Shown in pieces: positions 13,322-28,837 of a DNA stretch of 43,625 nt. Under the pieces are notes generated by a model. That model saw nothing but the letters and a program-made list of their open reading frames with translations. It was not told where the DNA came from and did not search any database. Within the stretch, counting starts at the first letter, position 1, and each line of letters starts with the position of its first letter. Origin of the DNA: Rhodospirillales bacterium (lineage in GTDB: Bacteria; Pseudomonadota; Alphaproteobacteria; Rhodospirillales; Magnetospirillaceae); assembly GCA_014380005.1 (NCBI GenBank), contig JACMKT010000062.1, forward strand, positions 1 through 43,625, read 5' to 3'. The position numbers were made by a program, and so were the translations under genes.

Positions 13322-14542
13322 ATGACAGTCGCCAGTGCCCCCATAAGCCCCGACACACAAGCGACCTTGCTGTTGTTTTCCCCACTTGTGGGGAATGGCG
13401 ACGTCAAGACGCTGACCCTGGGCGAATACAATGCGCTGGCAAAATGGCTCGCGTCCCGTTCGCTGCGTCCGGGCGACCTTCTTTCCGACGGTTCGCTTCT
13501 AGACCGGCCCGAACTGCTGGAAGCGGGCATTGAGCCCCAGCGGCTCGGCCGATTGATAGAACGCGGTTTGGCTTTAGCCATGGAATCGGACCGGTGGAAC
13601 CAGCGCGGCCTGTGGGTCCTGGGGCGTGGCGACGAAGGCTATCCCAAGCGCCTGCGTAATGCTCTGCGCCATGCGGCCCCGCCCATCCTATTCGGCATCG
13701 GTCGACGTGACCTGCTGCATCAGGACGGGCTGTGCATCGTCGGCTCACGCGATGCCTCACCCGAGGCCATGGCTTTCACCCGCCGTCTGGCCGAAAGCTG
13801 CGCACAATCTGGTTTGACAGTTATCTCCGGCGGTGCGCGGGGAGTCGATCAGGAGGCCATGAACGGGGCACTGGAAGATGGCGGAACCGTCATCGGGGTC
13901 ATGGCAGAGGGCTTGGCTAAAGCCGTACCAAAAGCATTGCGTGAACCGGTGATGGACGGGCGCCTATGCCTAGTTTCCCCATTTCCGGCGGATGCGCGAT
14001 GGACCCCGGCGCGGGCCATGGAACGCAATAAGTATATTTATGGCCTGTCCAAGGCAGCCGCCATCGCCGAAAGCGATATCAAGGGCGGAACCTGGACGGG
14101 GGCGCAGGAAAACTTGCGTCAGCGTTGGGTTCCCGCAGGGATCCGCAGCGAACCGAACGGGACAACCGGCAACCGCAAATTGGAAGAGATGGGGTTGCTG
14201 CCCATACGCGACGCCGACGTGGCTGATGCATCGGCTTTGTGCGCGTGGCTGGACAAAGCCATGGCCCGTTTCGCCGAGCCCGCCCATAGCGACTTGTTCA
14301 CGCCACGGCAGTCGAACGTAACCACGCCCCCTGCCCTTGCGGCGGATTTATTCGAACTGTTCTGCACATTGTTGGTCGCGCAAATCCAGAAAGCACCGCT
14401 TACCGCATCGGAAGTTGCAGAACAATTAGACCTCCAGCCTGCTCAGGCCAAAATTTGGCTGAAGCGTGCGGAGGAAGAAGGCATTGTGATCCTTGGCAAT
14501 AAGCCGAAGAAATACACTTTGCCGACACCGGGGCTCCTCTAA
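13322..14542 (+). CDS. DprA/Smf-like DNA-processing protein
   Basis: 406 residues from the ATG at 13322; a TTG at 13313 overlapping the helicase stop is an alternative start. The central Rossmann-like domain is DprA type: 'CIVGSRDAS', 'VISGGARGVDQEAMNGALEDGG' and 'RNKYIYGLSKAAAIAESD.KGGTWTGA'. An N-terminal ~100-residue extension and a C-terminal winged-helix-like segment ('LTASEVAEQLDLQPAQAKIWLKRAEEEG') flank it. DprA normally loads RecA on incoming single-stranded DNA in transformation. This copy is paired with a helicase-phosphoribosyltransferase fusion and departs from the typical motifs (SGGARGVD for SGLARGID), so it is probably a specialised paralogue. Its stop overlaps the stop of the convergent M50-HlyD gene. 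Confidence 0.85.
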   Translation: MTVASAPISPDTQATLLLFSPLVGNGDVKTLTLGEYNALAKWLASRSLRPGDLLSDGSLLDRPELLEAGIEPQRLGRLIERGLALAMESDRWNQRGLWVLGRGDEGYPKRLRNALRHAAPPILFGIGRRDLLHQDGLCIVGSRDASPEAMAFTRRLAESCAQSGLTVISGGARGVDQEAMNGALEDGGTVIGVMAEGLAKAVPKALREPVMDGRLCLVSPFPADARWTPARAMERNKYIYGLSKAAAIAESDIKGGTWTGAQENLRQRWVPAGIRSEPNGTTGNRKLEEMGLLPIRDADVADASALCAWLDKAMARFAEPAHSDLFTPRQSNVTTPPALAADLFELFCTLLVAQIQKAPLTASEVAEQLDLQPAQAKIWLKRAEEEGIVILGNKPKKYTLPTPGLL

Positions 14543-16650
14543 AACCCACTCTCCCGCACCACCACCGCCACCACCACATCCACAATGCGGCCCAATGGCG
14601 AGCGCCAATGGCCGTCGGCCACCACCACTCCCCGAGTGGCTTTTTCGTAATCGGGGCGGTCGGCGTCGAAGGTGAGATCGACGCGGTAGATGCCCTTGGC
14701 CGGGATCAGCCGGCCCTCGGCATCCTTGCGCACGGCGATGGGGCCGTTATTGGTGGAAGACAGGGCCGGCACGTCCAGCACGTCCGCGTTCAGATCGGCG
14801 ATGGCGGCGACCACGCAGGGGTAGGACGCCAGACTGGGGTCGTCGGGGATGAAGCGGGCGCGGGCGCCGGGTTGCAGGCGGCGCAAATCTTCCTCGGACA
14901 GGAAGGCGATCACGGCGGGGCGAGAGCGGTCGGCCACATAGGCCAACGGGGTGGTCTCGTTCACCCACAAGCCGGGGCGCAGCAGGGGCGACATGTCCAC
15001 CACAGTGCCGTCCATGGGCGAGCGCACCACCAGCCGGGCCATGGCTTGGCGCAGGCCCAATTCCTCGCGTTCATAGGCGGCAAGCTGGCTGCGCAGCACG
15101 TGCACCGATTGGCGGGCCTTGGTGTCGGCGGCCTCGCGCATCAGCAACGCCCGTTGTGCGGCCACCTTGATCTGGACCTGACGCAGCTTGTTGTCCAAAT
15201 CGGGCGAGGACAATTCCGCCAGCACGTCGCCCGCCGCCACCCGATGGCCGCGTTTGACCACGATGGTGTCCAGCCGCGCCGCCACCGGCGAGAAGATGGC
15301 GGAATAGGCCGAGGCACGCACCAGCGCCGGCATGTCCACGCTGCCCTTCCACGGCACCACCAGCAACGCCAGCGCCACGGCACCCAGCATCATGGACAAG
15401 CGCAGGCGCCCGGCCTGGATGTCGTCGCGCCGGTCCCACCAATGGCGCCATTCGGACAGGACCGGCTTGGCGATGAACCAGCCCAGTTCCACCGCGAACA
15501 GCAACAGGCCCAGCAGCTTGAAGAACATGTGGTAGACCAGCAGGGCGATGCCCAGGAACAGCACCAGCCGGTACACCCAGGTGCCGTAGCAATAGGTCAG
15601 CAGCAGCAGCCTCAGCCGGGGCGGGAAATGTTCGGGCGGCGGTTCGCGCAGGCCCAGCAACGCGCGCCGCATGCGCCAGCGGCCCAGGGCGAAGGCGCGT
15701 TCCTGCAGGTTTTCCATGCCCAGGGCATCGGCCAGCAGGTAATAGCCATCGAAGCGCATGAATGGGCTGGCGTTCAGCGCCACCGTCGCCACCAAGGTCA
15801 CCGTGACCATGGCGAAGGCGGCGGAGCGCGCCGGGCCGTCGGGCAGGAAGCTCCAGGCCAGCAGGGCCACGGATGCCAGGATCATCTCGGATATCATGCC
15901 GGCGGCGGCCACCGCCATGCGCTGGCGCCGCGACACCAGCCGCCACACGTCCGAGGTGTCGGTGTACAGCACCGGCATCAGCACCAGGAACGCCACCCCC
16001 ATGGTCGGCACCCGGCAGCCCAGCCGCTTGGCGGTGAAGGCATGGCCCAATTCGTGGATCGTCTTGGACAGGCCCAAGGCGGCGCCGAACCATGCCGCCC
16101 CCTGCCAGGAAAAGAAATGGGGGAAAGTGGACAGGAACACGTCCCATTGCCGCGCCACCAGGAACAGGCCCAACAAGGCCGCCACCAGCACGGCCAGCAG
16201 GAAGTTGCGGGTATAAAGCGGCCGCACCAGCGGCAGCGCCGCCGCCAGGAAACGGTCGGGCCGCACCAGCGGCAGACGGAAGAACAGGTAATTGTGCAGC
16301 AGCCATTTGTACCACACCGGGCGAGCGGCCTTGGCCCAGCCGGACAGCATGGCGACGCCCTTGGCGTCGGAACGCTGGATCAAATGGTTGGTGTCGAGGA
16401 AGTGCACCATGTCGTCCAGATCGTCTTCATCCACGGACAGGCCGGTTTCCGCCTGGGTGCGGGCCAGCAAAGCTGCGGGATCGCCCATGTTCCAACGCGC
16501 CAGCAGCTCGAAGGCGGCGCGGCCGATGCGGAAATAGCGGTTCCGCGCGGGGTCATGGATGGTCCAGGTGGGCGTGCCGTCGGTTCCCTCCGGCCCGGGA
16601 AACAGACGAAGGTCGTCGCGCAGCGGTGGCAAGCCGGATGTGTCTGTCAT
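14539..16650 (-). CDS. PqqD-like / site-2 protease (M50) / HlyD fusion membrane protein
   Basis: 703 residues in three parts. Residues ~10-95 resemble a PqqD-like winged-helix domain ('WTIHDPARNRYFRIGRAAFELLARW'). Residues ~150-430 form a multi-pass membrane site-2 protease with HELGH at 199-203 and the second metal motif 'NASPFMRFDGYYLLAD' (Asp302). Residues ~435-700 form a HlyD-type adaptor with lipoyl-like halves ('PVAARLDTIVVKRGHRVAAGD', 'VRSPMDGTVVDMSPLLRPG') and a short coiled coil. It is the last gene of a five-gene operon, overlapping the previous gene by four bases (ATGA). It likely spans inner membrane and periplasm and docks to the TolC-like protein encoded upstream. The family is annotated as 'putative peptide zinc metalloprotease'; its substrate is unknown. 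Confidence 0.88.
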   Translation of the reverse strand: MTDTSGLPPLRDDLRLFPGPEGTDGTPTWTIHDPARNRYFRIGRAAFELLARWNMGDPAALLARTQAETGLSVDEDDLDDMVHFLDTNHLIQRSDAKGVAMLSGWAKAARPVWYKWLLHNYLFFRLPLVRPDRFLAAALPLVRPLYTRNFLLAVLVAALLGLFLVARQWDVFLSTFPHFFSWQGAAWFGAALGLSKTIHELGHAFTAKRLGCRVPTMGVAFLVLMPVLYTDTSDVWRLVSRRQRMAVAAAGMISEMILASVALLAWSFLPDGPARSAAFAMVTVTLVATVALNASPFMRFDGYYLLADALGMENLQERAFALGRWRMRRALLGLREPPPEHFPPRLRLLLLTYCYGTWVYRLVLFLGIALLVYHMFFKLLGLLLFAVELGWFIAKPVLSEWRHWWDRRDDIQAGRLRLSMMLGAVALALLVVPWKGSVDMPALVRASAYSAIFSPVAARLDTIVVKRGHRVAAGDVLAELSSPDLDNKLRQVQIKVAAQRALLMREAADTKARQSVHVLRSQLAAYEREELGLRQAMARLVVRSPMDGTVVDMSPLLRPGLWVNETTPLAYVADRSRPAVIAFLSEEDLRRLQPGARARFIPDDPSLASYPCVVAAIADLNADVLDVPALSSTNNGPIAVRKDAEGRLIPAKGIYRVDLTFDADRPDYEKATRGVVVADGHWRSPLGRIVDVVVAVVVRESGF

Positions 16651-17999
16651 AGACCCAGCATATGGCGCACCGCCGCGATGGGGCGGCGGAACAGGTACAG
16701 GAACAGCGGCACGCGCGGGCCGTCGATGCGGATGGTGCCGCGCAGGCCGATACGGGGCGCCGCCTCGCCGGGATCCAGCTTTCCACGCACGCGATAGGCC
16801 AAGATGCCCTCGTCGCTCATGGCGGCTTCGTAGGAGGCCTCGGCCAAGCGGGCGGAGACCGGGCGCAGCGGGTCGGCGTCCAGGAACATGACCATGGCAT
16901 TGCCCTGGTCCAGCACCAATGCGTCGGCCACGGGCAAATGGGCTTCAATCATCACCCGGCTGGAATCGGCCAGGGTGATGATGCGTTCGCCCGTGCGCAC
17001 CGGTTTGCCGATCCAATCATTGGCATTGCGGAACACCGCCACCCCTGCCTGCTCGGCCTTGACCGTCGACCGCGCCAGCAAGCCGGACGCGTGGCTGAGT
17101 TCCGCCGTCTTCAAATCCACCTGGGCGCGGGCCAGCGCCACCTGGGCGGCGCTTTGAATGTCGGACATGGCGCCCTGCTCCGCCTTGCGCAGCTCGGCTT
17201 GGGCCACCGCCAATTCTTCCGCCGCCACCTGGGCGCGGGAGGTCAAATCGGTGTCGTCGAAGGCCAACAGCTTTTGGCCTTCGGTCACAATTTCATTGGG
17301 ACGCACGAAAAAACGGGCGACAACGCCGTCCAGGGGTGCCGCCACCACGAAGGGGTCGTCCGCCGCCACCTCGCCCGGCGCCAGGGCCGATTGGCGCACC
17401 GGCAACAGCAGCAGCACCAGCAGCGCCACCACCGCCCCGGCCCACAGCTTGCGGCTTTTGACCCAGGCCGGCAACGGCCGTTTCGGCCCCACCAGGGCGC
17501 CCCAGGCATGGGCATAGGTCTCGGCCAGCCGTTCGGCCAGGACCAGTTCCTCGTCGGCGAAGGGCTCTGCCCGGCTAAGCCACAACACGCCCACCGGCTG
17601 GCCGTCGGGCTTGACCAACGGCACCCACACCACATGGGCGGCGGACCATTCGGCCCATTCGGCGCGCTCGCGTTCACTCACCGCTTCGCGTTCGACCCGA
17701 TGTAGGCGGCGGCTGTCTTCGTGGAGCGACAATTGGCGGGCACAGGCGGTGACCCAGCGCAATTGGGGCGCGTTGACGTCGGGCGCCGGAACGTCGGACA
17801 CCGCCGCCACACTGGCCGCCTGATCCTCGGACCATGCCAGCACCATGGCTTGGCGGTATGGCAGCAGCATGCGGGTGCGGTTGGCGATGACGAAACGCAG
17901 GCCTTCCAGGCTTTGCGCGTGGCGGGCCTCGCGCTCCAACTGCAACAGTGTCAGCAGCGGACTTGCGGCGGGAGCCGCAGCTTTGGGAACAGCCGCCAT
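16647..17999 (-). CDS. HlyD-family adaptor with N-terminal GAF-like cytoplasmic domain
   Basis: 450 residues. The N-terminal ~175 residues look like a cytoplasmic GAF-type domain ('RFVIANRTRMLLPYRQAMVLAW', 'VVWVPLVKPDGQPVGVLWLSRAEPFADEELVLAERLAETYAHAW'). One membrane segment follows at about 185-203 (LWAGAVVALLVLLLLPV). The rest is a HlyD adaptor: lipoyl half ('APLDGVVARFFVRPNEIVTEGQ'), a ~70-residue coiled coil rich in Ala/Gln/Glu, a second lipoyl half and a beta-barrel segment. Its ATG overlaps the preceding stop as TAATG. The GAF-like part could sense a ligand inside the cell and act on the periplasmic assembly, but no ligand residues are recognisable. Confidence 0.83.
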   Translation of the reverse strand: MAAVPKAAAPAASPLLTLLQLEREARHAQSLEGLRFVIANRTRMLLPYRQAMVLAWSEDQAASVAAVSDVPAPDVNAPQLRWVTACARQLSLHEDSRRLHRVEREAVSERERAEWAEWSAAHVVWVPLVKPDGQPVGVLWLSRAEPFADEELVLAERLAETYAHAWGALVGPKRPLPAWVKSRKLWAGAVVALLVLLLLPVRQSALAPGEVAADDPFVVAAPLDGVVARFFVRPNEIVTEGQKLLAFDDTDLTSRAQVAAEELAVAQAELRKAEQGAMSDIQSAAQVALARAQVDLKTAELSHASGLLARSTVKAEQAGVAVFRNANDWIGKPVRTGERIITLADSSRVMIEAHLPVADALVLDQGNAMVMFLDADPLRPVSARLAEASYEAAMSDEGILAYRVRGKLDPGEAAPRIGLRGTIRIDGPRVPLFLYLFRRPIAAVRHMLGL

Positions 18000-18748
18000 T
18001 ATTGCGGCGGCGGAGTGAAGGTGGCGCTGCCGCTCATGCCGGCAATGACGCCCTCGGAATGCTTGTCCAGCAGGCCGACCACGGCCACCGATTGGCTGAC
18101 TGCGTCGATGCGGGCGCCCAGGCGGGTGACCTTGCCATTATAGGTCAGGCCGGTTTCGTCCACCTTGAGACCAAAGGTCACGCCCGGCTTCAGCCATTTC
18201 AGCCAACCCGACGGCGCCACCATGCGCACTTCGATCTGGCTGTCATCCAGGATGGCAAGCAGCGGCTGGCCCGGCGGCACGCTTTCATGGGGCTGCGCCC
18301 GGCGTTCCACCACCCGGCCCGAGAACGGTGCGCGGATGACGCAACGATCCACCGGCACGCGGGCGGAATCCACCCGGGCGCGCTGTTTCTCCACCTCGGA
18401 TTCAGCCAGTTGCAGTTCAAGCTGGCCGGCGGATTTCAGCCGGGCCAGTTCGCGCACATTGGCCACCGATTGATCGGCTGCCTTCAGCGAGGCACGGGCC
18501 TCGGCCAAAGCTGCGCGATAGGCGGCGCAATCGAACGACACCAGGGTGTCACCCTTCTTGAACCGCTCGCCATTCTGGAACGGCAGGGCTTCGATGCGGG
18601 CGGCCAGTTCACCGGCCAGCACCGCTTCGTTCACCGGCGCCAGCATGGCGCGCACGCTGGTTCCCCCCGATTGAGCACCAACCGATTGGGCAAAAACCGG
18701 CGACGCCGCAAGCAGCGCCGCCGCCAGAACCGTTCCGCGCAGCCTCAT
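17999..18748 (-). CDS. Periplasmic HlyD/RND-type adaptor (membrane fusion protein), short
   Basis: 249 residues from the ATG at 18748, which overlaps the TolC-like stop by four bases (ATGA) and begins a clean signal peptide (MRLRGTVLAAALLAASPVFAQS). The frame is open further upstream, but that would skip the signal peptide. The mature part has a lipoyl half ('AMLAPVNEAVLAGELAARIEALPFQNGERFKKGD'), a helical hairpin (~70-140), the second half ('CVIRAPFSGRVVERRAQPHESVPPGQPLLAILDD') and a beta-barrel piece. No inner-membrane anchor is visible beyond the signal. It is the second adaptor in this operon and would bridge to the outer-membrane channel. Confidence 0.86.
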   Translation of the reverse strand: MRLRGTVLAAALLAASPVFAQSVGAQSGGTSVRAMLAPVNEAVLAGELAARIEALPFQNGERFKKGDTLVSFDCAAYRAALAEARASLKAADQSVANVRELARLKSAGQLELQLAESEVEKQRARVDSARVPVDRCVIRAPFSGRVVERRAQPHESVPPGQPLLAILDDSQIEVRMVAPSGWLKWLKPGVTFGLKVDETGLTYNGKVTRLGARIDAVSQSVAVVGLLDKHSEGVIAGMSGSATFTPPPQ

Positions 18749-20643
18749 CGGCCCTTCGCCTGCATCAGCCCCAGACCGACATCTTCCCACCACGACGATA
18801 CGGCGCTCAAGGCCTGGGCGTTGGCGGGACGCTCCTCCGCCGCCGCCACGATAAGGGCGTCCAGAGTCTCGCCACGGCTTACCGCCGGTGCAGGACTCTG
18901 CATGGCCAGCAAACGGGCACTGGGCTGGGGAACCGGCGGGGCGGACGCAGCCGCAGCCACAGGCACGGGCACGGCCACCGGAGTGAAAGCAGGCACAGCC
19001 ACCGGGGTTTCGGCGTTCAGCGGGGCGGTTTCCACCTCAACCTTCTGCGAAGCCTTATCCTGGCGCTCGGCCTCCAAATCCTCGGCGGTGGCCGAGACCA
19101 GCTTGCCTTCACGCCAGCGTTCCATGCTGGTCTTGATGGCGCGGGCCAAGGTCGGGATGTCGTGCCCATCCACCTGAGCCGGCAGCGGATCGGCACCGGC
19201 GGTCAGGAAGACACGGCCCATGGCGTTGGTCACATCGGCAAAGGCCATGTCACGGCGCAATTCAGCCAACACGGAATTGACCTCGGCACTGATCAGCTCC
19301 ATCTCGCTGGACCGTTCGGTCCGTTGCGCCGCCGAGGTCTGGTCCAGGATGGCGCTTTCCACTTGGTTCAGTTCAGTGGCGGTACGGAACTCGCTGACCG
19401 CCTGCTGATAGCCCCGCCAGGACACGTGAACCTGGGACATGACGGCGATGGACAAAGCCAGACGCCGGGTGTGCGCCACGTCCTTGGCCCCCTCGCTCTC
19501 ACGGATACGGGCGGGGCCGTTCAGGAAGGTGTCGAACAGGTTGAAATTGACCTTGGCGACATAGCTCCACCAATGGTTCGATTCGGTATAAGAATTGCTG
19601 TCGTAATTGTAGCGGCCATCCAGGGTGATGCCGGGCAGCATCTGCAGCATGGCCCGCTTGATGTCCTTTTCGGCAATGCGGCCCTGATAGGTTTCCTCGC
19701 GCAGCTCGGGACGGCTTAGCATGGCTGCGCGTTCCAGATCGGGAAGGGCAATGCCCACCTGGGGCTCCTGGAAGGCGCCCTCGTCCACCGCCAATTGGAA
19801 TTCCTGGCCCGGCTTCAGGCCCATGAGCGCGGCTAGCTGAATCTTGGCACCCACCAGTTCGCGGCGGATCTGCTTGACCTGACGCAGCATCTCCAACAAC
19901 TGGCGGCGATAGACCAGCGCGTCCAACGGCCGCTTCAAACCCTGGGTCTCAATGGTGCGCGAGGACGCCAAGGCCTGATCGATACGGGCCTGCAAGGGAT
20001 CCAGGCGCTTGAGCAGCCGCTCGGCCGCCACCGCCTGCCAATAGGAACTGCGCACGTCTTGAACGATATTGTGGACGACCTTGCGGCGGCGTTCTTCGAC
20101 AATCAGGCCGCGATCGGCTTCCTGCTGGGCGCGCACGTAGGACACGCCGAAATCCAGCACGTTCCACGACAGACCGTAATCATAGACCGCGCGCTCGCGG
20201 TCCTGCGACATGGAGGTTTCCAGCGACTGGATATTGGTCAGCGACGAGCGCGATGAACTGGCCGACTGGTTGTTGCGGCCCTCATAGCCGGCCTTGGCGG
20301 TCAGCGCCGGCAGCATGGACAGGTTGGAGGTGGTCAATTGGCGCTCGGACAGCGCCGCCTCCATCAGCTTCAGCCGATGATCCATGTTGTATTTCACGCC
20401 CCGGGCCATGGCCTCGTACAGACCCAAGGGGGCAGTCAGCGGCTCCTGGTCGCCGAACAAAGCGGCCATGTCCTGCTTGGCCCGATCGGCATTTTCGTCA
20501 GCGGTCAGCGGCTCGCGCACCACGGCGCAACCGGCCAGAACCACAACGGCCACCGAAGCCACCAGCCACGAGCGAAAGCGCGAAACTTGGCCTCGCCGTC
20601 CAGCGAGCCCCTTGTCATTCAACTTGGACACACAGCCCCCCAT
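18745..20643 (-). CDS. TolC-like outer-membrane efflux lipoprotein with Ala/Pro-rich C-terminal tail
   Basis: 632 residues, longer than the ~470-500 of most TolC proteins. A basic N-terminus and hydrophobic segment end in the lipobox LAGC (Cys at about 39), so the protein is probably lipidated. Residues ~70-500 show the outer-membrane efflux pattern of long amphipathic helices in two repeats ('NMDHRLKLMEAALSERQL..', 'RPELREETYQGRIAEKDIKRAMLQMLPGI') and short beta segments ('YGLSWNVLDFGVS', 'VAKVNFNLFDTF'). The last ~130 residues are an Ala/Pro/Val-rich linker ending in a Trp-Trp helix-like piece, not typical for the family. It lies 44 bases after the giant surface protein gene and overlaps the following adaptor. 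Confidence 0.88.
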   Translation of the reverse strand: MGGCVSKLNDKGLAGRRGQVSRFRSWLVASVAVVVLAGCAVVREPLTADENADRAKQDMAALFGDQEPLTAPLGLYEAMARGVKYNMDHRLKLMEAALSERQLTTSNLSMLPALTAKAGYEGRNNQSASSSRSSLTNIQSLETSMSQDRERAVYDYGLSWNVLDFGVSYVRAQQEADRGLIVEERRRKVVHNIVQDVRSSYWQAVAAERLLKRLDPLQARIDQALASSRTIETQGLKRPLDALVYRRQLLEMLRQVKQIRRELVGAKIQLAALMGLKPGQEFQLAVDEGAFQEPQVGIALPDLERAAMLSRPELREETYQGRIAEKDIKRAMLQMLPGITLDGRYNYDSNSYTESNHWWSYVAKVNFNLFDTFLNGPARIRESEGAKDVAHTRRLALSIAVMSQVHVSWRGYQQAVSEFRTATELNQVESAILDQTSAAQRTERSSEMELISAEVNSVLAELRRDMAFADVTNAMGRVFLTAGADPLPAQVDGHDIPTLARAIKTSMERWREGKLVSATAEDLEAERQDKASQKVEVETAPLNAETPVAVPAFTPVAVPVPVAAAASAPPVPQPSARLLAMQSPAPAVSRGETLDALIVAAAEERPANAQALSAVSSWWEDVGLGLMQAKGR

Positions 20644-20687
20644 ACTCAGTGATCGCTCATTATCATTTGCATTACGCCGACGGCCCG

Positions 20688-23600
20688 TCAGGCCGCCAAA
20701 TCATCACCCAGCGCGGTCAAGGCCGAAGCCAGACGGGCCAGATCGGCCGCCCAGCCATGGGCAGCTTGGGCCGCCAATTGATCGGCAAAGCCGGTATTGC
20801 CCTCGGCTGCCAACCCGCCATCCTCGGACTCGGACCGCCCTTGCTGCTTGCCCTTGGGCTGCGGTTCGCCCTGAGGTGCGTTGCCTTGGGGCGCATTGCC
20901 CTGGGGCAGGCCCTCGCTATTGCCCGCAGGCTGGTTGCCATTGCCGGGTTGGGGGTTGCCTTGGCCGTTGTTGCGCAAGCCGTTGTTACCTTGGCCGTCG
21001 TTGCCTTGGCCGCTATTGCCTTGGCCCTCACCATTTCCACGACCACCGCCTTGGCCCTGACCAAAACCGCCGCCGGTGCCCCCCGTTCCGCCGCCGGTCC
21101 CAAGACCACCACCGGTGCCACCGCCAAAGCCGCCGCCCAGACCGCTACCGAGGCCGCCGCCAGTGCCTCCACCAAAGCCACTGCTCGATCCGCCATTGGA
21201 CGAGCCGTTGCCCGAACCTGTACCAAGCGAGCTGCCGGTGTTGTAGATGGCATCAAGACCGCCGCTCAATCCGGGCTTCACCATCAGGCCGGGCGTCTGC
21301 GGCGTGCCGCCGACGAAGCCGCCAGCGCCCGAATCCATGGCCTTGACCGGAGGTGCCGGAATGGGAACGGCCGGAGCCGGCACGTTGACGCTCGGGGGCG
21401 GCGCAGGCGGAAGTGGTGCGGAAACAACGGTATTGTTGTTCGTACTCGGGTTAATCTGATCAATATTTGTGTTGTTATTTTCCACTTTGGCATTGACGGT
21501 CACATTCGCCACCCCCGATGCCACGCCCTGGTTTCCCGCCGCATCGGTAGCCTTGGCGGTGATGATCAGCGTGCCCACCGGCAAGGTCGTGGTGCTCAGC
21601 GTCCACGCACCGGCACCATCCGCCGTGGCGGTGCCCACCGACACGCCATTGGCGTAAATGGTGACGGTGCTATCGGCCTCGGCGCTGCCGGAGACCTGCA
21701 CCGCACCGCCCGCCGTCACCGTCGGGACCGACAGCGTCAACCCGGTAGGCGCATTGGGTGCGGTGGTGTCGATGGTGACCGACAACCCGGTAGAAGCCGA
21801 CGAGGTATTGCCCGCCGTGTCGGTCTGCTTGGCGGTAACGGTATGAGCGCCCGCCCCCAGCGCCGAGCTGGTGATGGACCAGTTGCCCGAACCATCAGCA
21901 GTGGCCGTGCCGATCTGAGTGGTGCCGTCGGTGTCATACAGCCTGATGGTGCTGTTGGCCTCGGCCGTGCCGGTGAAGGTGGGGGTGGTGACGTTGGTGA
22001 TGGTGTCAGATGTGCTGCCGCTGTTGGAAGCGGTAGCCAGGGCCAGCCCCGAGGGCGCCGCCACCGCGGTGTCGATGGTAACCGCCAGCCCGCTCGACAC
22101 CGTCGAGGTATTGCCAAGCGTATCGACCTGCTTGGCAGTAAGGGTATGGGCGCCCACCCCCAGCGCCGAAGTGGTGATGGACCAAATACCCGAACCATCA
22201 ACGATGGCAGTGCCCAGGGAGGTCGTGCCGTCGGTGTCGTACAGGGTTACCGTCGCGCCCACTTCGGCCCCGCCGCCGCTGATGACCGGGGTGGTGGTGC
22301 TGGTGATATTGTCAGTGTTCGACGGCCCGCTGTCGCTGCCCGCATCCATGTCCGGCGTCGAAAGCGCGTTTGCGGTGTTGTCCAGCGTATAGGTCTGACC
22401 GGCGGTATAGCCGCCACCAATGGCGGTGGTGCCATTGCTGCTGGCAACGATGCCGGTGCTGCTGGCGTTCATATCCAGTTCGACGACGCCGTCACCCGAC
22501 AGCCCTGCCACATGCACCGTATAGGCGTTGTCGCCGGGGTTGCCGGCGGTGACGGTGATGGTCGCAGTGCCGCTGACCCCCGCCCCCTTGACTACGCTGA
22601 AGTCGGACGCATCGACCCCATCCACCGTCTGATTGAAGGTGACGGTATAGTCCAGACCGCCAGTGCCCTTGGTCGCGGCGGCGGCGGCGGCAGTGCGATT
22701 GATGGAACTGACCACCGGAATATCGACGGCGGTGATAGTGTACGGCTTGTCATAGGTGTTGCCAGCCGCGTCGGTCACCCGGACATTGACCTTGTAGGTC
22801 CCGACGGTGATGGCGCTTCCGCCCACCTGCAGCGTGCCGCCGACGATGGTGAAGCTGCCGTTATTGGCGCTGTTGGCCGGCGTTCCAGTATCATTGACCA
22901 GCGAATAGGTGAAGGTGTCCCCGCCCGTGGCGTCGGTGGCGGAAAGCGTCCCCACCGTCGCGCCCGAAGCCAGCGCCGTGGTGGAGGAGGACAGCGCCAT
23001 ATCGGTGGGCACAAGGGTGTCGATGGTAACCGACAGCCCGGTGGAAACCACCGAGGTATTGCCCGCCGCATCGCTCGCCTTGGCGGTAACGGTATGGGCG
23101 CCATTGCTCAGCGCCGAGGTGGTGATGGACCAATTGCCCGAACCGTCGGCGGTGCCGCTGCCGATCTCGGTGGTGCCGTCAGTGTCGTACAGCTTGACGG
23201 TGCTGTTTGCTTCGGCGGTGCCGGTGAAGGTGGGGGTGGTGTCGTTGGTCTTGTTGTCGGTGTTGACGCCACTGTCGGTGCCCGCCGTCATGTCCGGCGC
23301 CGAGGGGGCGCTGGGCGCCGTGGCATCCACGGTGACCGACAAAGAGGACGATGCCACCGAGACGTTGCCCGCAATATCGGTCTGCTTGGTGGTCAGCGTA
23401 TGGGTCCCAGCCGACAGGGTCGAGCTGGTGATGGACCAATTGCCCGAACCGTCAGCGGTGGCGCTGCCCAGGGCGGTGGTGCCGTCGCTGTCGTACAGGG
23501 TCACCGTTGCACCCGACTCCGCCCCGCCGCCGTTGATGACGGGAGTGGTGACGCTGGTGATGTTGTCGGTATTGGTGGCTGTGTCCGAAGCGGCGGCCAG

Positions 23601-26093
23601 ATCCAACCCGGTCGGCGCAGACGCCGAAGTGTCGATGGTGATCGCCAGCCCGGTGGAGGCCGACGAGGTGTTGCCCGCCGTATCGGTGGCCTTGACGGTG
23701 ACGGTATGGGCACCCACCCCCAGCGCCGAGGTGGTGATGGACCAATTGCCCGAGCCATCGGCGGTGCCGCTGCCGATCTCGGTGGTGCCATCGGTGTCGT
23801 ACAGCTTGACGGTGCTGTTGGCCTCGGCGGTGCCGGTGAAGGTGGGTGTGGTGTCGTTGGTGGTATTGTCGGTGTTGACGCCACTGTCGGTGCCCGCACT
23901 CATGTCCGGCGCCGAGGGCGCGCTGGGCGCGGTGGCGTCGATGGTGATCGCCAACCCGGTGGATGCCGCCGAAACGTTGCCCGCCGGGTCGGTCTGCTTG
24001 GCGGTGACGGTATGGGCGCCGGCGCTCAGCGCCGAAGTGGTGATGGACCAATTGCCCGAACCGTCGGCGGTGCCGCTGCCGATCTCGGTGGTGCCGTCGG
24101 TGTCGTACAGCCTGACGGTGCTGTTGGCCTCGGCGGTGCCGGTGAAGATGGGCGTATTGGTGCTGGTGATATTGTCGGTGCTGGAGCTGCCAAGGTCGGT
24201 GCCCACCGTCATGTCGGGCGCCGAGGGTGCCGCCGCCGAAGTATCCACGGTGACCGACAGAGAGGACGAGGCCGCCGAGACGTTGCCCGCAATATCGGTC
24301 TGCTTGGTGGTCAGCGTATGGGTCCCAGCCGACAGGGTCGAGCTGGTGATGGACCAATTGCCCGATTCATCGGCGGTGGCGCTGCCCAGGGCGGTGGTGC
24401 CATCGCTGTCGTACAGGGTCACCGTCGCCCCCACTTCGGCCCCGCCGCCACTGATGACGGGGGTGGTGACGCTGGTGATGTTGTCGGTATTGGTGGCGGT
24501 GTCCGAAGCGGCGGCCAAATCCAGCCCAGTGGGAGCCGACGCGGTGGCATCGATGGTGATCGCCAGCCCAGTGGAGGCCACCGAGGTGTTGCCAGCGGCA
24601 TCGGTGGCCTTGGCGGTGACGGTATGGGCGCCAGCCCCCAGCACCGAAGTGGTGATGGACCAAACTCCGGTAGTACCATCGGCGGTGCCGCTGCCGATTT
24701 CGGTAGTACCGTTGGTGTCGTACAGCTTGACGGTGCTGTTAGCCTCGGCGGTGCCGGTGAAGGTGGGCGTGGTGTCGTTGGTCAAATTATCGGTATTGAC
24801 GCCGCTGTCGGTGTCCGCCGTCATGTCCGGCGCCGACGGCGCGTTCGGCGCGGTGGTGTCCGAAGCGACCGGCAGCCAGATGAAGCTTTTCAGGGCAAAC
24901 AGCGACGGATTGGGCGTAACTCCATTTACCATGGTGCAACGCAGCTCGAACCGCTTAATGGCAACTCCCGCCAAAGAGGTCACGGCAGCGGCATTGGTGC
25001 CCGGATTATCGCCGATGGTAACTGATTGCTCGCTATCGTCGGCCTTAATGCCAACAAGCTTGAAGCCAGAAAGGGTTGTAGACGTCTCAGACATTGTCGC
25101 AGAGCTGAGAGTGAATAACCCCCCATCTGCTTTCTGAGCAGAAAGATAATAGTACCCGTTTGCCGTTGCCTGAACACTAACAGCAGAAGAATCCATATGC
25201 AGGCCGTTGCTGTCAATAACTGTAAAATATGCATAAGGGTCAGCGACTGAGGTTGCTGTCGCGTACCCCCCCGAAATGTAGTTGAACGTTCCATCCGTGA
25301 CGGACTCACCATAATCGCCAGCAGAAAGAGACAATGCCGTGAGGTCAACCGACGCCAAATCGTGCGCATATTCGTGAACATCGCCGAACGCACCTACCTC
25401 GATGGTGCCGGTGGTGCGTTCCAGCACCCAATCGCCGTGGATGCCGGTGGTGTCGGACGACGCCGCCACGTCGGCACCGCTGAGCGCCCCCACCCGATCG
25501 ATAAAGGCCTGACCATCGGCCCCGGCGGCCACGTCGCAACCGTAGAACAGAATGTCGCCATCCTGGGTCAGCTTGGCGCCGATGGCGGCCAAATCGGCGG
25601 CGCGGGCGTCAATGGTGGCGGAATTCAGCGTGGCGGTTCCAAGGAAAACCTGCCCCTCTGCACCATGGGACACCACGTGGATGGCGTCCACCGTGCCGGA
25701 ATGGGCCTCCAGCGTTTGGCGGATCACCGACAGCCCATCGGCATCGTCGGCCAGAACGACCACCTCCACATCCGACCGCACATTGGTCACTAGGCTTTGC
25801 CAATCGGCGACCGATTGCGAGACGAACAGGATTTCGCTGTGCTGCGGTTCGTCCGGCTGGGCCGCCGGTGCCGACACGGGCGATTCGGCAGCCACAGGGG
25901 CTGCGGCGACGCTTTCGGCGTGATCGGCAGTGGAGCCATCGACCGCAGAGAGATCGGGCACGACCACCGCTTCAACGGCAGTGGCAACCGCCGCGCCGTC
26001 GAACATCATACGTGGCTCCAACGCCAGCATGAGGGACGCGCGGGCACGCGACGAGCGACGCTTGCCAGTTCCACCAAAATTCACAGCGTTCAT
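20688..26093 (-). CDS. Giant LEPR-motif / DUF4347 / bacterial Ig-like repeat surface protein
   Basis: 1801 residues from the ATG at 26093; AGGGGA lies about six bases upstream, and an ATG six bases earlier is possible. The short basic N-terminus leads into LEPRMMFDGAA (25-35), the LEPR-type signature of large exported proteins. Residues ~87-240 are DUF4347, with His143 in 'IHVVSHG' and Cys186 in 'ILFYGCD'. A unique ~160-residue segment is followed by six Ig-like repeats of ~103 residues, two other domains (cadherin-like and one starting 'SSINRTAAAAAATKGTGGLDYTVTFNQTV'), three more Ig-like repeats, a Gly/Asn/Gln-rich region and a helical end. It heads an operon with TolC, adaptors and a protease, so it is the likely cargo. 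Role as adhesin is inferred. Confidence 0.87.
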   Translation of the reverse strand: MNAVNFGGTGKRRSSRARASLMLALEPRMMFDGAAVATAVEAVVVPDLSAVDGSTADHAESVAAAPVAAESPVSAPAAQPDEPQHSEILFVSQSVADWQSLVTNVRSDVEVVVLADDADGLSVIRQTLEAHSGTVDAIHVVSHGAEGQVFLGTATLNSATIDARAADLAAIGAKLTQDGDILFYGCDVAAGADGQAFIDRVGALSGADVAASSDTTGIHGDWVLERTTGTIEVGAFGDVHEYAHDLASVDLTALSLSAGDYGESVTDGTFNYISGGYATATSVADPYAYFTVIDSNGLHMDSSAVSVQATANGYYYLSAQKADGGLFTLSSATMSETSTTLSGFKLVGIKADDSEQSVTIGDNPGTNAAAVTSLAGVAIKRFELRCTMVNGVTPNPSLFALKSFIWLPVASDTTAPNAPSAPDMTADTDSGVNTDNLTNDTTPTFTGTAEANSTVKLYDTNGTTEIGSGTADGTTGVWSITTSVLGAGAHTVTAKATDAAGNTSVASTGLAITIDATASAPTGLDLAAASDTATNTDNITSVTTPVISGGGAEVGATVTLYDSDGTTALGSATADESGNWSITSSTLSAGTHTLTTKQTDIAGNVSAASSSLSVTVDTSAAAPSAPDMTVGTDLGSSSTDNITSTNTPIFTGTAEANSTVRLYDTDGTTEIGSGTADGSGNWSITTSALSAGAHTVTAKQTDPAGNVSAASTGLAITIDATAPSAPSAPDMSAGTDSGVNTDNTTNDTTPTFTGTAEANSTVKLYDTDGTTEIGSGTADGSGNWSITTSALGVGAHTVTVKATDTAGNTSSASTGLAITIDTSASAPTGLDLAAASDTATNTDNITSVTTPVINGGGAESGATVTLYDSDGTTALGSATADGSGNWSITSSTLSAGTHTLTTKQTDIAGNVSVASSSLSVTVDATAPSAPSAPDMTAGTDSGVNTDNKTNDTTPTFTGTAEANSTVKLYDTDGTTEIGSGTADGSGNWSITTSALSNGAHTVTAKASDAAGNTSVVSTGLSVTIDTLVPTDMALSSSTTALASGATVGTLSATDATGGDTFTYSLVNDTGTPANSANNGSFTIVGGTLQVGGSAITVGTYKVNVRVTDAAGNTYDKPYTITAVDIPVVSSINRTAAAAAATKGTGGLDYTVTFNQTVDGVDASDFSVVKGAGVSGTATITVTAGNPGDNAYTVHVAGLSGDGVVELDMNASSTGIVASSNGTTAIGGGYTAGQTYTLDNTANALSTPDMDAGSDSGPSNTDNITSTTTPVISGGGAEVGATVTLYDTDGTTSLGTAIVDGSGIWSITTSALGVGAHTLTAKQVDTLGNTSTVSSGLAVTIDTAVAAPSGLALATASNSGSTSDTITNVTTPTFTGTAEANSTIRLYDTDGTTQIGTATADGSGNWSITSSALGAGAHTVTAKQTDTAGNTSSASTGLSVTIDTTAPNAPTGLTLSVPTVTAGGAVQVSGSAEADSTVTIYANGVSVGTATADGAGAWTLSTTTLPVGTLIITAKATDAAGNQGVASGVANVTVNAKVENNNTNIDQINPSTNNNTVVSAPLPPAPPPSVNVPAPAVPIPAPPVKAMDSGAGGFVGGTPQTPGLMVKPGLSGGLDAIYNTGSSLGTGSGNGSSNGGSSSGFGGGTGGGLGSGLGGGFGGGTGGGLGTGGGTGGTGGGFGQGQGGGRGNGEGQGNSGQGNDGQGNNGLRNNGQGNPQPGNGNQPAGNSEGLPQGNAPQGNAPQGEPQPKGKQQGRSESEDGGLAAEGNTGFADQLAAQAAHGWAADLARLASALTALGDDLAA
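20830..21245 (-). repeat. Low-complexity Gly/Asn/Gln-rich coding tract
   Basis: This segment of the giant protein gene encodes Gly-rich runs (GGG with F, L, T), then N/Q/G/P-rich runs such as GQGNDGQGNNG and PQGNAPQGNAPQGEPQ. The two GNAPQ copies are near-exact tandem repeats. It separates the Ig-like part from a terminal helical segment (GFADQLAAQAAHGWAADLAR and on) and probably acts as a flexible, cell-wall- or channel-spanning linker. Confidence 0.7.
21490..24860 (-). repeat. Tandem Ig-like coding repeats, ~309-base period, in two blocks
   Basis: Within the giant protein gene, units of about 103 codons recur. Six are consecutive at about 23020-24860 and three more at about 21490-22370, with two unrelated domains between. 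Two unit types alternate in the first block: one with 'TPTFTGTAEANSTVKLYDTDGTTEIGSGTADG' and one with 'TPVISGGGAEVGATVTLYDSDGTTALGSATADG'. DNA identity between same-type units is very high over long runs, which points to recent duplication or gene conversion and makes assembly errors and repeat-number variation likely. Confidence 0.85.
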
Positions 26094-26562
26094 GACCATT
26101 CCCCTAGCGCCCAATGAGGTCAGCACACCACATCCCAGGGACAATATCCCCAATTGAACGCCATAAAGCAACCTTTGGATGATATTCAGATAGACCTAAA
26201 CTCAGGCATTGCAGCTACGCACAACGCATCGGCCAAGGGCATTCATTGATTGGCAATGCCGCCCCCACCAGTCGCTATCTCTTTCTGAATACGGGAATTT
26301 CAACCTGAATACAATCCGATTGGACGCGAACGGCCATCGCCACGCCGACAGCCGCAGCCCACGGAGACCAAACGCCACGACAACCTTGGCGATAGCTAAT
26401 TGTTAAGACATGCGATTGTATGCACCAAAAACGCGAAGATTTAGAATCTTTTGGTGGTGCATCATGGGAATTTAAATTATCTCTGATGGCACAGGGCGAT
26501 GACTGAGTATTGTATGCGAGTATGCAGTCAGCCCTACACATGCCATTCAGGGAGGGGCTCTT
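26094..26562. promoter_or_regulatory. Divergent regulatory region with nested palindrome at 26423-26456
   Basis: About 470 AT-richer bases separate the giant-protein operon (leftward) from the Tail-Collar genes (rightward). The most regular element is CACCAAAA (26423-26430) facing TTTTGGTG (26449-26456). Inside it are AAGATT (26436-26441) and AATCTT (26445-26450) around TAG, so the two dyads overlap at 26449-26450. Close by is the perfect palindrome AATTTAAATT (26469-26478). These are candidate operators or a transcript hairpin about 110 bases before the first collar gene. I see no convincing -35/-10 pair and no coding frame. Confidence 0.45.
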
Positions 26563-27153
26563 ATGACGCCTTACATGGGAAGTATCTTGCCATTCGCCGG
26601 GACGTACGCACCCCAAGACTGGCATTTCTGCGATGGGACCCTGCTGTCCGTCAGCCAGTATGAAGCACTGTTTTCGCTGTTCGGCACCACCTATGGCGGC
26701 GACGGCGTCAACACGTTCGGCATCCCGGATCTGCGCGCTCGCATGCCGGTGGGCGCCTATATGAACGTTTCAAATGGCGACATTTATCCCCTGGGCAGCA
26801 AGGGCGGCCAAGCCTACACCACGCTGACCTCGGCCAACATGCCACTGCACAGCCATACGGCGCCGCCGATTACCACCCAGGCGAGCGGCACCTACAAAAT
26901 TTCCAACGCAACCGCCACTACCACCAGTCCCACCGCAGGGTCCCTGCTGGCCGCGGGACCGGTTACTACCTCAACGACCGCCCCCTACACCACCACCCCG
27001 GCCACGATCCCGCTGGCGTCCAGCATGGCGAATTTCACCGTGCCCGTGGGGACGGCCGGCTTCGGCGCGACGCAAACAGTGCCGAGTGTGCCGCCTTACG
27101 TGGGCGTCAGCTTCATCGTGGCGCTGGTTGGCCTGTATCCGGTGCGCCCCTGA
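26563..27153 (+). CDS. Tail Collar domain protein 1 (microcystin-dependent-protein-like)
   Basis: 196 residues, preceded by GGGAGGGG. The N-terminal ~60 residues are a phage Tail Collar domain (MTPYMGSILPFAGTYAPQDW, then FCDGTLLSVSQYEALFSLFGTTYGGDGVNTFGIPDLRARMPVG). The middle is Thr/Ala/Ser-rich, and the end 'VPPYVGVSFIVALVGLYPVRP' matches the conserved C-terminus of this family. No signal peptide is present. These proteins are often annotated as microcystin-dependent protein or phage tail protein, yet no other tail genes are nearby. It is the first of three tandem paralogues, 22 bases before the next. It may be a trimeric tip or receptor-binding module used by the neighbouring export locus, which is inference. 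Confidence 0.88.
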   Translation: MTPYMGSILPFAGTYAPQDWHFCDGTLLSVSQYEALFSLFGTTYGGDGVNTFGIPDLRARMPVGAYMNVSNGDIYPLGSKGGQAYTTLTSANMPLHSHTAPPITTQASGTYKISNATATTTSPTAGSLLAAGPVTTSTTAPYTTTPATIPLASSMANFTVPVGTAGFGATQTVPSVPPYVGVSFIVALVGLYPVRP

Positions 27154-27174
27154 TTTTCGAAGGGATTAAAAATA

Positions 27175-27759
27175 ATGGACGAATCTTATCTCGGCTGTGT
27201 CCTTCCGTGGGCGCTGAGCTACGCACCGGATGGCTGGGCATTCTGCAACGGCCAGACCATGCAGATCCAGGGCAACCAGGCGCTGTACAGCATCCTGGGG
27301 ACCGCTTTCGGCGGCAACGGGCAAACCACTTTCCTGCTGCCCAATCTGACTGGGCGCTTGATCCGCGGCATGAACTATGCGGGTGCCGACGTCCGGGGTG
27401 CGGTGGGTGGCGCCAAATCGGTGACCCTGAGCGTGGCCAACCTTCCGCAGCACAACCATTCGCTGGGTGCGTTGACCGGAACCATGCCGACCACTCTGGC
27501 ATCGGCGACTACTACGCCTACGCCTACGATTACCACTCATCCGATACCGGTTGCGAACGACAAGTTCGCCGTGACCGCCCCCACAAAAGTGTATGCCCCC
27601 CCCGGTGCCACGGCCAACACGGCCATCGCCGGACTGACGGTGACCACCACGAGCGCCATAAGCACCACGGGTAGCGCCGCGGCACTCCCCGTTCTTCCGC
27701 CCTATCAGGCGCTGACCTTCATCATCTGCATCGCGGGCATCTACCCAAACCGCTGGTAA
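27175..27759 (+). CDS. Tail Collar domain protein 2
   Basis: 194 residues with AAGGGA upstream. It shares the collar N-terminus of its neighbours (YLGCVLPWALSYAPDGWAFC then NGQTMQIQGNQALYSILGTAFGGNGQTTFLLPNLTGRLIRG) and the C-terminal 'LPPYQALTFIICIAGIYPNRW'. The middle, about residues 75-170, is Thr/Ala/Pro-rich and differs from the other two, so the three copies are diverged paralogues rather than recent duplicates. It is cotranscribed with copies 1 and 3 by spacing (21 bases on each side). Its exact partner is unknown. Confidence 0.88.
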   Translation: MDESYLGCVLPWALSYAPDGWAFCNGQTMQIQGNQALYSILGTAFGGNGQTTFLLPNLTGRLIRGMNYAGADVRGAVGGAKSVTLSVANLPQHNHSLGALTGTMPTTLASATTTPTPTITTHPIPVANDKFAVTAPTKVYAPPGATANTAIAGLTVTTTSAISTTGSAAALPVLPPYQALTFIICIAGIYPNRW

Positions 27760-27780
27760 TCACCCACGAGGAGTAAAGCC

Positions 27781-28392
27781 ATGTACTATGGTTATATTGG
27801 TTCCATCGTCCCGTGGGCGGGAGGTTTCGAGCCCGAGGACTGGTTTTTCTGCGATGGCCGGCTGCTGCAGATCAACCAATATCCTGCGCTCGCCTCCATT
27901 CTCGGCACCCGGTTTGGCGGCAATGGCCAAACCACGTTCGCCCTGCCGAATTTGTCGCAAAAATTCCTGTTGGGCCAAGGCACCTCGACCGTGCCGAACA
28001 TGCCCACCATTAACGTGGGCGCCACCGGCGGCACCGCCACCGGTCAGTTGAGCGGCCTACCGTCCCACAGCCACGCCTTCTCGGGCACCGTGACGGCCAC
28101 CCTGTCGGCATCCATCATCAATGGGACCCAGGCCGCCCCCACGTCTGCCACCTCCGCCGGCGTGTTAACCCGCATCACAAGTAGCAGCACATCATCTGTT
28201 GCCATGTACGCCTCCACGGTGACCGGGCCCACTGACATCGGCAGTTTGACGGTCACCCCGCCGATCTTCGACACCACTGCCGGCACCGGCATTACCGGCG
28301 TGCCCGCGCCGACCGCGTTCAGCACCCTGCCGCCTTATCAGACGCTGAACTACATCATCGCCGTAAACGGCGACTACCCCATGCGCCCCTAA
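27781..28392 (+). CDS. Tail Collar domain protein 3
   Basis: 203 residues with a GAGGAG ribosome site. The N-terminus (YYGYIGSIVPWAGGFEPEDW, FFCDGRLLQINQYPALASILGTRFGGNGQTTFALPNLSQKFLLG) and C-terminus ('LPPYQTLNYIIAVNGDYPMRP') are those of the collar family. The central region is Thr/Ser-rich with beta-prone stretches, suiting a fibrous trimer. A DUF6916-like gene starts 15 bases later, which completes a four-gene operon closed by a terminator at 28782-28818. Confidence 0.88.
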   Translation: MYYGYIGSIVPWAGGFEPEDWFFCDGRLLQINQYPALASILGTRFGGNGQTTFALPNLSQKFLLGQGTSTVPNMPTINVGATGGTATGQLSGLPSHSHAFSGTVTATLSASIINGTQAAPTSATSAGVLTRITSSSTSSVAMYASTVTGPTDIGSLTVTPPIFDTTAGTGITGVPAPTAFSTLPPYQTLNYIIAVNGDYPMRP

Positions 28393-28407
28393 TCAAGGAG
28401 AGTCACC

Positions 28408-28773
28408 GTGAGCGAATCCAACAAGGACTTCAACCCTGCTGACAACACTCCTCCGGCTCTTGAGGATGCGGTGGTCACGTCCCCCGTGGTCATGGCCTAC
28501 GCCGCCAAAGTGGGCGAGACCTTCCGCACCAACGGCACCACCGAGCTGAAGTTGCTCAAGGCCGAGCCGTCGGTCAAGTTCAAGGTGGCCCCCGGCCAGC
28601 AGCCCCCCGACGTGCCGGTGGGCGTCAAGCTGGTGTTCGAAGGCCCCGATGCCAGCGAACTGCCGGAAGGAACGTATGTGGTGGAAGCGGGCGATCAACA
28701 GTGCCACCTGCACTTGATTCCCATCCAAAGCCCTGTGGGCATGCAGCTTTATCAGGCTGTCCACGACGAGTGA
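28408..28773 (+). CDS. DUF6916-like small protein associated with Tail Collar genes
   Basis: 121 residues from a GTG start with AAGGAG at seven bases. The pattern 'YAAKVGETFRTNGTTELKLLKAEP....VPVGVKLVFEGPDASELPEGTYVVEAGDQQCHLHLIPIQSP.GMQLYQAVHDE' fits my memory of the DUF6916 family, in which an F.G/GETF strand, a 'F.GP...LPQGTY' turn and an 'LFLVP....G..YEAVF' end recur and which often sits beside Tail Collar genes. The function is unknown; a small beta-rich cytosolic or assembly factor is plausible. It is the last gene before a strong terminator. Confidence 0.65.
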   Translation: MSESNKDFNPADNTPPALEDAVVTSPVVMAYAAKVGETFRTNGTTELKLLKAEPSVKFKVAPGQQPPDVPVGVKLVFEGPDASELPEGTYVVEAGDQQCHLHLIPIQSPVGMQLYQAVHDE

Positions 28774-28781
28774 TCCGTCCA

Positions 28782-28818: not shown

Positions 28819-28837
28819 CTTCCCATCGGTTGCGCCC

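Follow-up and report, generated by a model that had tools for sequence, protein, structure and literature searches.

A leader-bearing giant protein and a candidate M50-HlyD/TolC export module in Rhodospirillales

A stretch of 43,625 nucleotides from a Rhodospirillales bacterium (contig JACMKT010000062.1 of assembly GCA_014380005.1), called the window below, carries an operon that raises a question of protein export. The operon encodes a giant repeat protein, a TolC-like outer-membrane channel, HlyD-type adaptors and a fusion of an M50 (site-2) protease with an HlyD adaptor, but no ATP-binding cassette (ABC) exporter. By which route would such a giant leave the cell? A preliminary description of the locus had proposed an export or display system without an ABC ATPase. 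This proposal stood in part: the gene set was found to recur without a conserved ABC gene, though absence of ABC exporters from the whole genome does not follow. Comparing sequences across genomes, we lean slightly towards a route in which a leader addresses giant surface proteins to an M50-HlyD/adaptor/TolC assembly for export and display.

A five-gene set that recurs without a conserved ABC gene

The operon extends from 26093 to 14539 on the minus strand in the order giant, TolC lipoprotein, RND-type (resistance-nodulation-division) adaptor, GAF-like/HlyD protein and M50-HlyD fusion. The giant (20688-26093), the presumed substrate, comprised about 1800 amino acids. Its open frame reaches 26171, and its start is probably at 26093, because AGGGG lies 7 nt upstream of that ATG. 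It consists of a LEPR leader, a DUF4347 domain, nine Big_13 matches representing immunoglobulin (Ig)-like repeats, a Gly/Gln/Asn-rich linker and a C-terminal tail. The TolC gene follows after 44 nt, and the genes downstream overlap. It encodes a 632-residue outer-membrane lipoprotein of the TolC/OEP family (18745-20643; PF02321, E=8e-28) with the lipobox LAGC; homologues showed LLSAC-type lipoboxes. The periplasmic RND-type adaptor (17999-18793) matched HlyD_3 and TIGR01730, the latter with 113.6 bits at a cut-off of 94.9. Its own signal peptide was read from the sequence, with a likely start near 18748. The next protein (16647-17999, 450 amino acids) comprises a GAF-like domain, one likely transmembrane segment by sequence reading, and an HlyD adaptor (HlyD_3, HlyD_D23). 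Among 33 homologues, 6 matched GAF and 3 matched GAF_2 (best E 1.3e-4); the window protein itself had no Pfam match to either. The M50-HlyD fusion (14539-16650, 703 amino acids) matched M50 and HlyD in Pfam and, when counted, brings the HlyD-type adaptors of the operon to three. None of the five proteins contains a Walker A motif, and the sole Walker A gene among those listed between 14 and 35 kb encodes an AAA_27 (SbcC-like) protein at 30452-34027. All nine genes named in the preliminary description were in place, and each matched its named family in Pfam.

The set recurs in many Proteobacteria, in Nitrospira and on plasmids. A first sample comprised 41 genomes, the source genome and 40 relatives. 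Full-length M50-HlyD (E below 1e-100) was detected by protein search in 18 of them, often several times per genome. The relatives' loci mostly showed the order giant, TolC, adaptor, GAF/HlyD and M50, with differing giants; in some, TolC came first or members were not recognisable. A collection scan yielded at least 593 relatives, the best 80 of which served as named loci. They included Pseudomonas, Azospirillum, Pectobacterium, Serratia, Methylomonas and Nitrospira. The giant followed M50 in Nitrospira. In Pseudomonas, the order was adaptor, GAF/HlyD, M50, GNAT, DUF6916, collar, giant and TolC, with families checked against Pfam in locus L142; for DUF6916, L128 and L179 were checked as well. 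Neighbours were counted at 36 M50 loci around the window's relatives and at 79 named ones. A GAF/HlyD neighbour was recognised at 27 and 70 of these, respectively, an adaptor at 19 and 62, TolC at 27 and 43 and a giant, by similarity, at 23 and 47. These counts are lower bounds, as simple open-frame gene picks miss or mis-start genes and contigs often end inside the module.

Module relatives were present in 53 of 72,556 plasmid records. An Escherichia coli plasmid held all five genes together with a 4459-residue Ig protein that bears the leader at its N-terminus (ALESRQLFDGAA). A Kosakonia cowanii plasmid showed the five genes with SLEPRMLFDGA as the leader, as well as three genes annotated as "tail fiber protein". 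Some E. coli thus hold the module (L186, L189): matches to the M50 gene occurred in 24 of 5,426 genomes of the species, at least 80% of the gene being covered in 22, and 21 of the 25 places of such matches were on plasmids. Copy number varied as well. A single-contig genome (G007:C1) had two very similar module copies near 2.02 and 2.54 Mb (L052, L053). It encodes nine LEPR/DUF4347 giants and five full-length M50 genes plus one fragment; two of the giants, near 305 and 618 kb, lie more than 100 kb from any M50 gene. The source genome of the window holds a second, partial module on a contig of 8.4 kb (G000:C142, L074), where two M50 pieces are accompanied by an adaptor and a TolC-like gene.

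The HlyD-type adaptor and TolC-type channel of type I secretion are both in the gene set. A dedicated ABC exporter was found neither in the operon nor, by motif search, as a conserved gene across the 115 module loci. The search returned 21 ABC-like open reading frames (ORFs), several of which were false (giants and one GAF-HlyD protein); one was an AAA ATPase by sequence reading, and the remainder were at varying distances from the module. The main rival explanation holds that an ordinary type I ABC exporter, with its gene at another locus, drives the giant through the TolC/adaptor set, M50-HlyD only processing or anchoring it. We regard this as unlikely, but it has evidence in its favour. Giant, channel and adaptors otherwise resemble type I parts, and the type I ABC model TIGR03375 was matched at E<=0.001 in all 41 genomes. 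However, all 14 control genomes matched too, so the model is unspecific at this threshold. TIGR03375 was not used as a proof that no ABC exporter exists. Over the family cut-off, which marks the LapB/LssB-type giant-adhesin ABC, it was matched in none of the 18 module genomes and in 2 of the 23 others (G028 and G034), a difference too small to count alone. The giants themselves also speak against a standard type I substrate. Repeats-in-toxin (RTX) motifs, whose presence near the C-terminus is usual though not universal in type I substrates, were rare in the giants with a LEPR leader. Two or more GGxGxD motifs occurred in 6 of 69 such giants, many of their frames being cut by locus ends, and none of the six had one in the last 300 residues. 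Five or more repeats were present in two of six DUF4347 giants from genomes without M50-HlyD.

The LEPR leader and its partner gene

The leader motif ALEPRMMFDGAA (25989-26024, minus strand) is preceded by a basic stretch and was kept in relatives. The leader as a whole is basic, with a short hydrophobic stretch. It matched NF012209 LEPR-8K with 16.2 bits in hmmscan and 18.7 bits in a genome scan, at a cut-off of 17. A leader profile derived from giants of the order to which the window belongs was searched against 1032 ORFs of the named loci. It matched 41 of them (domain E<0.01); each match fell inside residues 1-140, and each of these ORFs had at least 682 amino acids. The tail of the window giant, about 40 residues long (20691-20810, minus strand), is also conserved. 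Its profile gave 11 matches in the named loci (domain E<0.05), all of them at most 15 residues from the C-terminus of the first, large ORF of the locus. Judged by sequence, the giants carry a basic LEPR leader, a Sec-like hydrophobic core is mostly missing, and a C-terminal tail is common to many of them. They are nearly free of cysteine, with a median of 0.75 per 1000 residues (n=53). The window giant has Cys212, which belongs to the dyad discussed below, one more cysteine and one upstream of the likely start. Frames behind the leader can be very long: 28 of 81 leader frames at LEPR-8K places comprised at least 5,000 residues, and one leader (G101:C115:112865) was in an open frame of 19,427 residues.

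Within the first sample, the DNA pattern LEPRx(L/M)FD was present in 19 of 41 genomes, namely all 18 module genomes and G015, one of the 23 others; the reversed control pattern had no match in the 41 genomes. DUF4347 was found in the same 19 genomes. It followed 41 of the 43 pattern matches, and 44 of 50 DUF4347 domains had the pattern nearby. A second sample comprised 349 genomes of the window's phylum, which its named relatives indicate to be Pseudomonadota, and 14 control genomes, with M50-HlyD counted at E<=1e-40 and DUF4347 by the Pfam model, not by our own profile. M50-HlyD was present in 87 of the 349 genomes, and these were split, after the scores had been seen, into 76 with strong matches (best E<=1.5e-113) and 11 with divergent ones only (best E 5e-90 to 2.6e-53). 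Strong M50-HlyD and DUF4347 occurred together in 68 genomes, M50-HlyD alone in 8, DUF4347 alone in 20 and neither in 253. The curated LEPR-8K model matched 53 of the 349 genomes at E<=0.01, and neither it nor DUF4347 matched any of the 14 controls. M50-HlyD was found in 51 of these 53 genomes, which included all 11 divergent-only and 40 of the 76 strong ones.

In two classes of genome, M50-HlyD and DUF4347 part company. LEPR-8K was matched in 11 of 15 genomes with M50-HlyD and no DUF4347, and in none of 16 with DUF4347 and no M50-HlyD. When our own leader profile was applied to these 16 genomes, a leader was detected in one of their 32 DUF4347 frames (two of them fetched twice), in G227, which is 57% complete. 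Judged by sequence matches, this is a double dissociation across the 349 genomes, in which the leader goes with M50-HlyD rather than with DUF4347. Locus L217 showed a divergent M50-HlyD near a giant with a canonical LEPR-XLL leader and GAF/HlyD-like neighbours; the pairing of leader and M50 therefore extends to a second subfamily. Six DUF4347 giants from genomes without M50-HlyD were read individually, their end types being assigned by reading. Three had neither a leader nor a Sec-like start (L195, L196 and L200). L196 and L200 have an RTX-rich C-end, and L195 has another end. The remaining three (L197, L198 and L199) showed a Sec-like start and no LEPR leader. One of them ends in an autotransporter-barrel-like part and one in a terminal membrane segment, and L199 runs off its stretch.

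These starts bear on a further explanation, that Sec or some other general pathway takes the giant across the inner membrane although it has no classical signal. The module would then serve quality control, anchoring or release in the periplasm and outer membrane, and M50 would cut the membrane-inserted leader. Site-2 proteases normally cut transmembrane or signal-like segments, and the basic leader with its short hydrophobic stretch would be in keeping with such a role, as would the Sec-like start of three of the six giants without M50-HlyD. As a threshold for a Sec-like core, a mean hydropathy of 2.0 over 11 residues was used, which is not a signal-peptide predictor. It was reached by 5 of 63 LEPR giants, another point for a Sec route, compared with 71 of 84 adaptors and 65 of 76 TolCs at the same loci. 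The other 58 leaders thus stayed below the hydrophobicity of most adaptors and TolCs beside them, and the LEPR leader is absent from the three giants with a Sec-like start. A general route appears improbable on this evidence.

Two predicted proteases and the accessory genes

The HELGH zinc motif of M50-HlyD comprises residues 199-203 (16042-16056, minus strand). HExxH was kept in 37 of 37 homologues, and H199, E200, H203, N293, P296 and D301 were invariant in 57 sequences. The HExxH motif and the distal Asp ligand of site-2 proteases are both present. Since neither the zinc ligands nor the NxxP...DG motif vary in these 57 sequences, the fusion probably has protease activity. In sequence comparison, the M50 part matched the solved site-2 proteases MJ0392 (E 4e-4) and RseP (E 1e-3). 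In the AlphaFold2 model (57 sequences, mean predicted local distance difference test, pLDDT, of 88.9), the N-terminal domain has three strands followed by three helices, the membrane part is helical and includes HELGH, and the C-terminal part is an adaptor, whose best Foldseek matches were EmrA, MacA and MexA. No related solved chain was found for the N-terminal domain (residues 1-95; 16366-16650, minus strand), which is possibly related to PqqD or the RiPP recognition element (RRE; RiPP, ribosomally synthesised and post-translationally modified peptide). Pfam matched PqqD in 1 of the 57 homologues (E=0.14) and hhalign gave a probability of 11% (P=0.0027). Both values are weak, and sequence similarity to PqqD was not used as proof. 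The preliminary description had counted two HlyD-type adaptors and a PqqD-M50-HlyD fusion; the families hold, and the PqqD label is weak in sequence.

The named model closest to M50-HlyD was the daptide HExxH protease NF041824, which covers residues 31-389 with 172.9 bits, below its cut-off of 300. M50 and HlyD parts occur in RiPP export. The fusion might accordingly be read as a RiPP-like exporter that matures a small peptide, the giant being a mere neighbour. Against this stands the association with LEPR giants, which held across the 349 genomes and through rearrangements of the operon, and we consider such an exporter very improbable.

DUF4347 (25395-25832, minus strand; PF14252, E=1e-45) heads the window giant behind the leader. 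An AlphaFold2 model from 37 sequences (mean pLDDT 80, high over the domain) showed an alpha/beta fold with a conserved His after one strand and a conserved Cys after another. The best Foldseek match was Tce1 (PA0256; 9qpe, E 1e-5). Caspase-7, caspase-3 and legumain followed with low TM-scores of about 0.3-0.4, and the dehydrogenase 3ucf was among these matches at a similar E-value. His169 and Cys212, in open-frame numbering, were both kept in 61 of 65 DUF4347 domains, a count taken from a search with a profile whose alignment had been picked by a rule requiring HG...C. The invariance of His and Cys within that alignment is no evidence, since the selection rule required it. The same profile spans the leader, and DUF4347 flags set by script on leader-bearing proteins (e.g. 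L202 and L203) may reflect the leader instead. According to the part of the Tce1 study available (PMC13323088), His186 and Cys240 of Tce1 align with a known cysteine-protease dyad, and the protein is termed a putative protease. In that part of the study, Tce1 was not toxic in yeast and cleavage activity was not demonstrated (PMC13323088). We read DUF4347 as a predicted caspase-like (clan CD-like) cysteine-protease head with putative activity. As an export tag, DUF4347 was rejected; it also turns up where the module is missing, and the leader is then missing as well. Locus L043 has DUF4347 in tandem, with a first domain that lacks both catalytic residues and a second that keeps the Cys motif.

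A divergent group on the plus strand (26563-29311) comprises three tail-collar proteins at 26563-27153, 27175-27759 and 27781-28392 (PF07484, E=2e-25, 5e-24 and 4e-25, respectively), a DUF6916 protein at 28408-28773 (PF21880, E=2e-9) and a GNAT acetyltransferase at 28787-29311 (PF00583, E=9e-13). The GNAT gene had been overlooked in the preliminary description and belongs with the collar/DUF6916 set. Collars were near 9 of the 36 and 23 of the 79 M50 loci (lower bounds), and they were commoner in genomes with strong M50-HlyD (34 of 76) than in the others (51 of 273). The expected co-occurrence of the two operons was thus found, as also on the Kosakonia plasmid with its three tail fiber genes. 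DUF6916 adjoins collars in three Pseudomonas loci and in G090, and GNAT stands beside collar/DUF6916 genes in L142 and L195. G090 lacks M50-HlyD and has collar, DUF6916 and GNAT genes beside a DUF4347 giant; collars have the same position in G248 (with GNAT) and G341, likewise without M50-HlyD. Collar and DUF6916 proteins, once proposed as members of the export system, were therefore rejected as core parts of the exporter. Because they accompany DUF4347 giants without the exporter, we place collar, DUF6916 and GNAT proteins on the cargo side as accessories. A literature search returned nothing bearing on DUF6916 in this setting. In a Pseudomonas locus (L142:13857-16425), the giant is immediately preceded by genes for a PMT-like glycosyltransferase and a sulfotransferase and, given these neighbours, may be modified.

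Two neighbouring features of the window were also recorded. The metallophosphatase and AAA_27 genes at 29325-34027 form an SbcCD-like pair by reading and are probably unrelated to export. An S8 subtilase gene for 781 amino acids is located at 38239-40584 on the plus strand.

A proposed route and its known counterparts

On the favoured reading, the leader would be recognised at the inner membrane by M50-HlyD, perhaps via its N-terminal domain. The three HlyD-type proteins would assemble into a single adaptor ring seated on the TolC-like channel, the protease serving as the inner-membrane base, and the giant chain would leave through TolC. Folding of the Ig repeats outside could help to pull the chain. 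The M50 site would cut the leader region, whereby the substrate would be finished or released. The caspase-like DUF4347 head may remain close to the channel, acting as a plug, and may release the fibre by self-cleavage. Collar, DUF6916 and GNAT proteins would act as partners or modifiers of the DUF4347 giant. A stronger version is a secretion system of its own kind, in which LEPR is the address tag, an adaptor/TolC machine on an M50-HlyD base, without an ABC, RND or major facilitator superfamily (MFS) pump, recruits giants and moves them across both membranes, and M50 and DUF4347 control processing and release. We put this version forward tentatively, as possible and somewhat doubtful.

Several observations weigh against the export route. 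For a driving force, the set offers no ATPase, proton channel or known translocon. Relatives of ABC exporters are present in all 41 genomes of the first sample, and an operon without an ABC gene is no proof of absence. A leader without detected M50-HlyD occurred in G015, in the incomplete genomes G227 and G250 (57% and 86% complete) and in G317, where the frame has 64 amino acids. Conversely, 36 of the 87 M50-HlyD genomes had no match to the curated LEPR-8K model; the variant LEPRxMFDGA scores near its cut-off. The genome tallies are complete, and the comparison of places holds among the matches listed: 33 of 81 LEPR-8K places shared a contig with M50-HlyD, 25 of them within 10 kb. The division into strong and divergent M50-HlyD was made after the fact, as stated, and the genome counts and Fisher p-values ignore relatedness, the p-values not being relied on. 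No Pseudomonas giant was among the matches to the C-terminal tail profile; most giants of this genus run off their loci, and the few complete Pseudomonas tails resemble the tail by eye. Finally, two domain labels are weak: GAF, as assigned from homologues, and PqqD/RRE, whose identity draws mainly on the predicted order of strands and helices.

If the route is correct, roughly one in four of the genomes sampled from the phylum (87 of 349) would carry a means of placing giants on the surface, and genes labelled as efflux adaptors would have to be re-read as parts of protein export. The function of the LEPR-XLL motif would become testable. A site-2 protease would stand at the base of a TolC machine, with a caspase-like domain heading its cargo. 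In agreement with the preliminary description, which had called the system undescribed, no description of the export system was found in the full-text literature searched, a scope outside which most subscription papers and preprints fall.

Among known systems, the RiPP-maturation M50 proteases (daptide HExxH, YydH/LiaK) share the M50 core. The M50 of the module differs in scoring below the family cut-off, in its fusion to an HlyD adaptor and in having a giant as partner. NCBIfam NF012209 LEPR-8K (LEPR-XLL domain) gives a name to the motif matched by the window leader, and full-text literature searches returned neither a function nor a partner for LEPR-XLL. Tce1 of Pseudomonas aeruginosa has the DUF4347 fold and the His/Cys dyad in common with the head of the giant. 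It is a 310-residue type VI cargo, whereas DUF4347 of the window heads a giant repeat protein. Tripartite pumps (AcrAB-TolC, MacAB-TolC and EmrAB-TolC) use the same families of adaptor and outer-membrane channel, but the module has no RND, ABC or MFS pump in its set. The substrate of the module would moreover be a protein, with frames ranging from about 1,000 to more than 10,000 residues. Type I secretion (HlyB/HlyD/TolC) and the LapA/LapBCE system likewise combine a TolC channel and HlyD-type adaptors with a very long repeat protein in which a Sec-like signal is mostly lacking. The module differs in having M50-HlyD in place of an ABC exporter and two further adaptors, and its giants bear an N-terminal LEPR leader with RTX repeats being rare. 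As the defining ABC exporter is missing from the gene set, the module was not assigned to type I secretion. Though it may work like a type I system, we set it apart, on gene content, as a candidate variant of TolC-based export.

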